A stretch of 32,465 nt of DNA from assembly GCA_005524015.1 (NCBI GenBank), contig SULG01000034.1, positions 1 to 32,465 on the forward strand. The letters are read 5' to 3'. This stretch comes from Candidatus Jettenia ecosi. GTDB taxonomy: Bacteria; Planctomycetota; Brocadiia; Brocadiales; Brocadiaceae. Position numbers and translations under genes: made by a program. The notes under the pieces were generated by a model, which was not told the origin of the DNA, did not search any database, and worked only from the letters and a program-made list of their open reading frames with translations. Below, in pieces: positions 1,362 through 9,729 of the stretch (position 1 is its first letter; every line of letters starts with the position of its first letter).

Positions 1362-1435
1362 ATTAAGGACTAGGGTCTGCAGCCCGAAGAGTCATTTCCC
1401 TAGATGACCTGTCCTTAATCTCTACTACTAGGGCT
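1362..1435 (+). ncRNA. Candidate structured leader RNA with competing pairings
   Basis: A 9-bp closing stem pairs 1362-1370 (ATTAAGGAC) with 1411-1419. Inside are a hairpin closed by 1373-1375 with 1383-1385, and a perfect 5-bp hairpin of 1391-1395 (GTCAT) with 1404-1408. The loop of the latter (CCCTAG, 1398-1403) is perfectly complementary to CTAGGG at 1370-1375, and again to CTAGGG at 1428-1433 just before the ribosome site AAGGGGG. AGCCC at 1381-1385 can also pair with GGGCT at 1431-1435. Such exclusive pairings look like a switch or attenuator acting on the downstream regulator. It matches no riboswitch class I know, and it could instead act as DNA. Confidence 0.45.
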
Positions 1436-1451
1436 ATTTTAAGGGGGCAAC

Positions 1452-6668: not shown

Positions 6669-6872
6669 ATGCAGATAGCAAAGAATGAAGATAGCGAATA
6701 CTTAAACGTAAACCAGGTAGCTACATTTTTAGGTGTATCGGTGGATACCGTTTATTCATGGACAATGCGTAAGTCTATACCTTTTTACAAGTTGGGTAAG
6801 CTTGTGCGCTTCAAGAGGTCTGAACTTATTGCATATATGGACAGCTTAAAGGTCGAGCCATATGGCAGTTAA
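6669..6872 (+). CDS. Excisionase-like HTH_17 (MerR-fold) DNA-binding protein
   Basis: 67 residues with the whole pattern of the helix-turn-helix family of Xis and similar proteins: YLNVNQVATFLGVSVDTVYS, WTMRKSIPFYKLGKLVRFKR, then a short C-terminal helix. The ribosome site AGGAGA lies upstream of ATG 6669. Its 3' end overlaps the methylase start by 11 bp. It is a likely partner of the integrase at the right end, though it could also be an operon regulator. Confidence 0.75.
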   Translation: MQIAKNEDSEYLNVNQVATFLGVSVDTVYSWTMRKSIPFYKLGKLVRFKRSELIAYMDSLKVEPYGS

Positions 6873-8280: not shown

Positions 8281-8440
8281 ATTGGTAGTGGTATTATACA
8301 CCAGATACAAACAGATAACAAAATATAAAAAGATATAGGAATTAAATACTTGAAATTACATTCATTTATTGATAAGTACGTACGTAGTAAAATCAAGGGC
8401 GTGGACAGACGCATAATAAATATGCCTGAGCAATTGGGCA

Positions 8441-8493
8441 ACAAAAGGCAACGGTTGGAAGTGCTGTCCCACTTTCAATTTGTTGCCTTTTGT
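8441..8493 (+). promoter_or_regulatory. Bipartite inverted repeat upstream of the integrase start
   Basis: Perfect 12-bp arms ACAAAAGGCAAC (8441-8452) and its complement (8482-8493), with a second small hairpin (AAGTG/CACTT) in the loop. It falls just before ATG 8521, inside what would be coding sequence if the integrase began at TTG 8350. This argues for the later start and for a regulatory or recombinase-binding role. Confidence 0.5.
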
Positions 8494-8520
8494 GTTTCTG
8501 GAAAGGACGGTGTGCAATCT

Positions 8521-9729
8521 ATGGCGGTTAGATATCGAAAGTATTTCCAGCAATGTAAGGGGAAAAGAAATAATGGCGACCGATACGGCAAGTTGATTGC
8601 AAAGGGTATTAGCTGTGAAGGTAAACGTAGTAAGAACTGTCCAGAAGGTATACCAAAGGATAAGCCTTGCGGTGGATGGGCAATCGAGTTCAGAGACCAG
8701 CAAGGCAAATGGCAGAGTATTATCAAGCCAGGCTTCACTAAAACGACAGCTAAGGAAGCATACCTTGAGATAATAAGGAATATCCAGCGAGGTCTATTTG
8801 ATCTACCCATCCTGCAAAAGATGCCTAAGGTTACCGTAGAAGCATATGCCAGGAAATATCTTGAACACATCAAGGGCAGCATACCAGAGAACACATTTGT
8901 GAGCAGGCAAACGGCAGCGAATGCTATCATAAGGCGTCTAGGTGACTTTGAGGTTTCCAGGCTTAATATAGTTCTAATACAAAGATTCTGCACAGATGTA
9001 TTGCAGTTAGACCAGGCGAAAGCATCTACCGTGAATCAATATTGTTCTATCCTCAGGCTTGTTCTGGACATGGCTGTGCAGGAAAGAGTCATTAGCACGA
9101 ATCCTATGCAAGGGTTTAAACGGCTAAAGGTGGACGAGACAACTAAGCGTATATTAACGAATGAGGAAATAAGGGCAATCCTTGATGAATCTATATTACC
9201 TATGGGAAGTGACCGCATGGCTATTCTTATTGGTATGCTTACGGGCATCCGACTAATGGATGTCATAGGGCTAGACTGGTCAAACATAGATTTTAATAAC
9301 TTCAGGATCACTTTAATACCACAAAAAACAGGCAGGAGTATTACCTTGCCATTGTCTGGTTACCTGCTAGGTGAATTAAAGAGGTATAAAGAATTAATGC
9401 CTGACAAGGAATACCGCTTATTCTACGATGGCGAACTCAATCTTGTTGCAGGAAGAAAGTTTAGCAGGCGATTTGTAAACCTATTCAAGAGATTAGGCAT
9501 GAATGACATTTCATTCCACAACCTACGTCATACAAATGCCAGCAAGTTTACTGAGGTTATCCAGGACGTTTCTGTTGCATCAAAGCTATTAGGCCACAGC
9601 CACACAGACATTACTATGGGTTATATTCATAAAGACTTTAACTCACAGAAAGAAGCTATTGAGAAGTTCACAAACCATATGCTTTCCCTGCAAGGGTACG
9701 AACCAGAAGCGAATCAAAAAATAGCATAG
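8521..9729 (+). CDS. Tyrosine recombinase / site-specific integrase
   Basis: 402 residues from ATG 8521; the frame opens from TTG 8350, but the extra 57 residues look unlike an integrase and overlap an inverted repeat. The N-terminal part (MAVRYRKYFQQ to IIRNIQRGLF) is an arm-binding-like region, then a core-binding SAM-like domain (VEAYARKYLEHI to ISTNPM), then the catalytic domain with all expected residues: R244 (TGIRLMD), K269, H333 and R336 (HNLRH), H359 (LLGHSHTD) and Y368 (GYIHKDF). It ends 40 bp from the proposed attR and should integrate and, with the excisionase-like protein, excise the element. Confidence 0.92.
   Translation: MAVRYRKYFQQCKGKRNNGDRYGKLIAKGISCEGKRSKNCPEGIPKDKPCGGWAIEFRDQQGKWQSIIKPGFTKTTAKEAYLEIIRNIQRGLFDLPILQKMPKVTVEAYARKYLEHIKGSIPENTFVSRQTAANAIIRRLGDFEVSRLNIVLIQRFCTDVLQLDQAKASTVNQYCSILRLVLDMAVQERVISTNPMQGFKRLKVDETTKRILTNEEIRAILDESILPMGSDRMAILIGMLTGIRLMDVIGLDWSNIDFNNFRITLIPQKTGRSITLPLSGYLLGELKRYKELMPDKEYRLFYDGELNLVAGRKFSRRFVNLFKRLGMNDISFHNLRHTNASKFTEVIQDVSVASKLLGHSHTDITMGYIHKDFNSQKEAIEKFTNHMLSLQGYEPEANQKIA

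Follow-up and report, generated by a model that had tools for sequence, protein, structure and literature searches.

A candidate translational switch in the int-alpA RNA (RF02996), found ahead of a mobile-element gene in Candidatus Jettenia ecosi

Overview

A leader RNA on the + strand of Candidatus Jettenia ecosi matches the catalogued Rfam family int-alpA (RF02996), and we consider it probable (roughly 0.65), judging from comparison of homologous sequences, that int-alpA controls translation in cis as a switch: loop 3 would sit either on a decoy strand, leaving the Shine-Dalgarno sequence (SD) exposed, or on the SD, which would then be masked. The leader lies in the window, i.e., the whole stretch of 32,465 nucleotides that was analysed (contig SULG01000034.1). 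A first-pass annotation had described it as an RNA of no class that could be named; with the RF02996 match at 1363-1433, this description no longer holds.

In the proposed mechanism, a three-way junction of P1, P2 and P3, with conserved joining bases, would present loop 3, for which two downstream partners would compete, i.e., the decoy, a short way past P1, and a closely similar strand at the SD, which most relatives carry in the loop of P4, a small hairpin immediately ahead of the start codon. With loop 3 on the decoy, the SD would be free and the switch on; with loop 3 on the SD copy, 30S binding would be blocked and the switch off. The two pairings would alternate in the cell, and sensing may fall to the junction, the conserved bases of which point to a sensor or to a three-dimensional contact that the RNA needs. 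If this proposal is correct, a catalogued family gains a function, with the likely role of controlling the translation of genes inserted in the operons of phages and mobile elements, and it would explain how inserted genes stay quiet within other operons. Because loop, decoy and SD copy change together, RF02996 also gains a concrete and cheaply testable mechanism.

The leader in the window

The following features of the leader, and of the gene behind it, are used below.

1363-1433, + strand: int-alpA RNA, RF02996 match of 45.4 bits (gathering cut-off 35.8), model positions 1-71 of 71
1362-1370, + strand: 5' arm of P1, 9 bp with 1411-1419, predicted minimum-energy fold
1373-1385, + strand: P2 hairpin (GGGT / GCCC), arms 1373-1376 and 1382-1385, from the fold and the RF02996 alignment
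1391-1408, + strand: P3 hairpin (GTCAT / ATGAC), arms 1391-1395 and 1404-1408, from the fold and the RF02996 alignment
1398-1403, + strand: loop 3, CCCTAG, with two putative competing partners, from permutation tests
1411-1419, + strand: 3' arm of P1, partner of 1362-1370, predicted minimum-energy fold
1428-1433, + strand: decoy strand CTAGGG, complement of loop 3, 6 bp, -9.0 kcal/mol, covarying in relatives
1442-1447, + strand: SD copy AGGGGG, the weaker loop 3 partner, 6 pairs including two G-U, -7.1 kcal/mol
1452-2372, + strand: putatively controlled gene, 306 aa, its winged-helix (Trans_reg_C) match weak and below the Pfam cut-off

The closed multi-branch fold of the first-pass annotation, with a 9-bp outer stem and two inner hairpins, is present as it was described, and the minimum-energy fold consists of the same three stems. 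Its stability does not exceed chance (-21.8 kcal/mol; shuffles average -23.4; z = 0.49), with 136 of 200 shuffles at least as stable, and the case for the fold therefore rests on comparison. P1, P2 and P3 are kept in the leaders of four relatives with compensatory changes, e.g., GGAC/GTCC to GGGA/TCCC in P1 of loci L017 and L018, which argues that the predicted fold is real and conserved. P4 is almost absent around the SD copy of the window, where it has 2 bp. Given its good decoy, an SD pairing with two G-U pairs and this 2-bp P4, the window copy may be a weakened example of the switch.

Two other modes of control were considered and rejected. The annotation had also allowed for an attenuator, but no intrinsic terminator is found on the + strand in 1125-1480, in which the only terminator-like site is on the - strand. 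The CsrA motif is a GGA site, and as a general explanation such a site fails because many SD copies lack GGA.

Family membership and distribution

The RF02996 match was obtained by an Rfam scan of 1340-1480 alone and spans the full model length. An Rfam scan of the whole window missed it, and two genome searches were likewise silent, so that the Rfam counts given here are lower bounds. The int-alpA motif was reportedly first described by Weinberg et al. in 2017. In the family, the joining bases CUAG, CGAAAAG and CCUG are strongly conserved between highly variable stems, and the three-way junction of the window has CTAG, CGAAGAG (one change from CGAAAAG) and CCTG at these places, further supporting its membership.

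The RF02996 model scored over its cut-off in 7 of 11 related loci and, when used alone, in at least 20 of the 59 genomes of the window's order, compared with 0 of 14 controls. A covariance search of 98 genomes, using a model built from five leaders and matches at E up to 1, found homologous leaders in 33 genomes (26 of 33 in the window's taxonomic family, 7 of 29 in the rest of the order and 0 of 36 outside the order), although the weakest of these matches may be due to chance; the highest count in one genome with this model was up to six matches. The RF02996 family is now placed in anammox bacteria; the source genome holds the hydrazine synthase alpha family (PF18582, E 6e-29), which is present in 0 of the 14 control genomes and makes it very probable that this host carries out anammox. 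The int-alpA RNA of one related locus (L069) has, about 45 nt away and on the opposite strand, a DUF3800-V RNA (RF02964, 70 bits; 1898-1992, - strand).

Viral sequences were searched with a pattern that covers the 5' core only (CTAG ... CGAAAAGC ... GCCTG), which gave at least 120 stretches, 80 of which were taken as loci. The Rfam model scored over cut-off in 44 of the 49 virus records tested, nearly all of which carry a single copy. Stretches similar in DNA were found in 19 records, including phages of Edwardsiella, Pantoea, Klebsiella, Enterobacter, Salmonella, Vibrio and Pseudomonas, among others. A phage-type query matched 154 of 5426 E. coli genomes, the match extending over 40% of the query length among the matches listed. 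The one E. coli genome that was opened shows an integrase, the RNA, a hypothetical gene and an HTH regulator, with the annotated start codon where the model expects it. A strict int-alpA pattern had no match in the genome contigs, and one phage query gave no match.

Binding sites typically combine strongly conserved joining bases with stems that vary widely, and the junction might accordingly be read as the operator of a trans-acting protein or as a small-molecule aptamer, for which the pairings would serve only as the expression platform, as in a riboswitch or a protein-regulated leader. We regard this reading, which is compatible with the switch, as conceivable though somewhat doubtful, for no common neighbour gene or shared function is seen behind the RNA, and hence no ligand is suggested.

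Pairing of loop 3 with the decoy and the SD copy

The complement of loop 3 is present twice, first in the decoy and then in the SD copy, which usually lies in the loop of P4. Both pairings were examined by permutation, in which the fit of an element's own loop 3 is compared with that of loops dealt from other elements. The relatives' set began with 74 aligned matches, of which 8 were left out (two duplicate loci and six weak or opposite-strand matches) to give 66; of these, 14 had a P3 that could not be read and 4 no start codon, and without them 48 remained. Several of the dropped relatives look normal by eye. From the 80 viral matches, a short P3 removed 4 and a missing start 5, leaving 71, one of which (L112) is probably a chance match. 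Merging of near-duplicates gave 53 viral and 43 relatives' elements. The permutations leave some relatedness in, for which the sole correction is clustering by loop (edit distance > 2, one element each), with 29 viral and 14 relatives' clusters. Since the viral search pattern ended before the decoy and the SD copy, that search favoured neither site.

The sequence CTAGGG occurs in the window at 1370-1375 as well as at 1428-1433, and the first-pass annotation took these two strands to be the alternative partners of loop 3. The pseudoknot with 1370-1375 is rejected, as loop 3 shows no preference for its own partner there: dealt loops match the own score in 775 of 5000 permutations for the 53 viral elements and in 2142 of 5000 for the 43 relatives. 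The CTAG at this site is near-invariant across the family while loop 3 varies. In contrast, the pairing with 1428-1433 gains strong support from covariation, since the homologous leaders compared contain compensatory changes, with loop and downstream strand changing jointly from CCCTAG/CTAGGG in the window to CCTTAG/CTAAGG in L016 and CCTTG/CAAGG in L010. The loop 3-decoy score of the viral elements is 15.56 for own loops vs. 9.33 (sd 0.35) for dealt ones (49 elements with distinct loops), and that of the relatives 13.85 vs. 10.29 (sd 0.39; 37 elements with distinct loops). With one element per loop cluster, z is 14.3 for the viruses (29 clusters) and 5.3 for the relatives (14 clusters), the observed score being reached in 0 of 10,000 permutations each. 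Loop 3 and decoy form 5 or more pairs (including G-U) in 65/71 viral and 41/48 relatives' elements, and fewer than 5 in 13 of the 119 parsed elements (6/71 viral, 7/48 relatives). L042, which was left out of the tests, counts against the loop 3-decoy rule: by eye, its loop 3 does not fit its own decoy, and its halves look like those of other elements, as if recombined.

The SD copy follows loop 3 as well. Own loops score 12.93 vs. 9.74 (sd 0.32) for dealt ones among the viruses and 12.15 vs. 10.27 (sd 0.32) among the relatives, and with one element per loop cluster z is 8.3 (29) and 4.4 (14), respectively, again with no permutation out of 10,000 reaching the own score in either set; defining the loop differently, in an earlier run, gave agreeing results. 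Five or more pairs are found in 56/71 viral and 33/48 relatives' elements, and fewer in 30 of the 119 (15/71 and 15/48). From the end of the SD copy to the start codon the median distance is 6.5 nt (n = 50). A triple change is seen between two phages, Enterobacter phage Tyrion having the loop TCGTCA, the decoy TGACGA and the SD copy AGACGAGG, and Vibrio phage PS15B.2 the loop TCGTAA, the decoy TTACGA and the SD copy ATACGAGG. P4 was compared with dinucleotide shuffles, and its observed mean was reached by 0 of 1000 sets (43 viral; 39 relatives); its arms vary among elements (GTCATT/GATGAC, GTTAC/GTAAC, TCGTTT/AAACGA, AGGTTT/AAACCT). The Rfam model extends no further than the decoy, so that it covers neither P4 nor the SD copy, nor the covariation of the latter with loop 3. 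These comparisons revise the earlier view of a switch through mutually exclusive pairings that touch translation initiation: a cis-acting RNA with exclusive pairings is supported by covariation, but the exclusive pair that the permutation tests point to is 1428-1433, as decoy, vs. the SD at 1442-1447.

In the Rha-type phage leaders (e.g., L106 and L123), the SD is not matched to loop 3. By eye, the loop 3 complement in a group of Rha-like and related regulator leaders (L106, L123, L134, L144, L147, L159, L171 and L172) appears to overlap the start codon (ATGAACATG, ATGAATATG).

The main rival to the switch is a static leader that displays the SD, in which loop 3 and decoy would form a permanent pseudoknot stacked on P4, with the SD held in an exposed loop, insulated from the flanking RNA, and no switching would take place. 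The conservation of P4 agrees with such a display, and so does the decoy pairing being the stronger and better conserved of the two (viral z 14.3 vs. 8.3; median duplex energies -8.5 vs. -7.5 kcal/mol). However, a static leader does not explain why the SD copy tracks loop 3 as it does (0 of 10,000 permutations), nor the triple change between Tyrion and PS15B.2, and we consider it unlikely. For the switch, the same median energies are near-equal and would fit a poised system. The likeness of decoy and SD copy could come in part from duplication, without selection for alternative pairing.

Genes and transcripts around the RNA

The genes behind the RNA are unrelated to one another and include HNH endonucleases and Rha regulators. 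For the viruses, 58 proteins were chosen from 73 frames listed, near-duplicates and doubtful frames being left out; among them are 6 Rha and 5 DUF1376 proteins, and single cases include an integrase, AntA and Dam. At least 11 of the 58 genes, with 21 of the proteins inspected singly, match endonuclease families, i.e., at least 10 HNH (E up to 0.01) and one T5orf172. For the relatives, 39 proteins encoded behind the RNA were taken, and all 25 families listed have one matching protein apiece. In several loci (L034, L035, L036, L050, L078 and others), the proteins look mosaic-like, several of them with an MNTPKSTP-like start, an EPEMQGQANG-like linker and differing ends.

Among 51 viral representatives, 29 have the RNA starting within 40 nt of the stop of an upstream frame on the same strand, as do 27 of the 60 relatives' matches. 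This leaves little room for a promoter, suggesting that the RNA often rides on the transcripts of other genes and that control by int-alpA is most likely exerted at translation. The window leader is farther from its upstream frame, with 237 nt between the end of that frame and P1, and may therefore have a promoter of its own.

As mobile genes of unrelated kinds stand behind it, the RNA looks portable, and since these genes often lie within other operons, the signal for the switch is probably a general one, not the product of the controlled gene. We put forward, tentatively and at somewhat less than even odds, a wider reading of the sequence comparison: int-alpA may be a translational switch that is general and portable, travelling with mobile genes among phages and distant bacteria, with loop, decoy and SD copy co-evolving and with a signal common to most bacteria, such as the translation state, a ubiquitous metabolite or a conserved RNA-binding protein.

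Rfam types int-alpA as 'Gene; sRNA', from which a small RNA acting in trans might be expected. This is very unlikely, given that a start codon follows at a fixed short distance, that the SD of the adjacent gene tracks loop 3 of the same element and that many copies, starting within 40 nt of an upstream gene, have little promoter room. A structured DNA site, e.g., for an integrase or for element transfer, would suit a location within mobile elements with integrases near some copies, but the G-U pairs in the stems, the fixed position before start codons and the SD covariation make it highly improbable.

Relation to known systems

The window RNA shares with the Rfam family the junction, the conserved bases and the model's terminal AgGG; it differs from the Rfam entry in that the leaders described here behave as cis leaders, whereas the entry is typed as an sRNA gene. 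SAM-II and preQ1-II are translational riboswitches with a pseudoknot at the SD, and they resemble int-alpA in that a loop pairs at or beside the SD. In contrast to them, loop 3 of int-alpA varies freely together with its partners, and no Rfam match to either class is found here.

Structures that mask the RBS are described, in the portions consulted of one review, for the phage homing endonuclease mRNAs of T4 and Aeh1 (I-TevI, mobE, segB) (PMC3014915). As may hold for int-alpA, where at least 11 of the 58 viral genes are endonuclease-like, leader structure limits the translation of a mobile endonuclease in these leaders, but their SD or AUG is, by the same portions, held in an RNA helix (PMC3014915). 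The int-alpA leaders differ by a conserved three-way junction and by one loop with two partners, both common to unrelated genes and hosts.

In the literature searched, no assigned function for RF02996 was found; no paper there names RF02996, one has int-alpA in a table and a sentence, and the excerpts from a search on integrase and AlpA motifs contain nothing on the int-alpA RNA.

The mobile element of the window

Two further genes of the window belong to the same putative element as the leader.

6669-6872, + strand: HTH_17 gene, PF12728, E 3e-15
8350-9729, + strand: tyrosine integrase, PF00589, E 6e-23

By Pfam, the genes 3' of the leader gene encode a PriCT-2/BT4734-type primase, an ERCC4 nuclease, HTH_17, a D12 methylase and the tyrosine integrase. 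From this content, the set from primase to integrase, together with the leader gene, looks like one integrated mobile element. We take the HTH_17 gene to be AlpA/excisionase-like, and the name int-alpA presumably reflects nearness to integrase and AlpA-type genes; in the window, the integrase and HTH_17 genes lie in the RNA's own element, 5-8 kb downstream.

The gene behind the leader (1452-2372) has no endonuclease match in Pfam, which sets it apart from the T4-type homing endonuclease genes. With its protein as query, no relative was found among the genome contigs and viral contigs, and a DNA similarity search gave 0 matches in plasmids and one short, chance-like match in phages. Within this gene, 1610-1645 is a perfect 18-bp tandem repeat that stays in frame. 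Directly 3' of the gene, at 2378-2507, a 65-bp unit is present in two tandem copies that are 97% identical, and several inverted repeats of the CCCCCTTT/AAAGGGGG type are found at 1-192 of the window.
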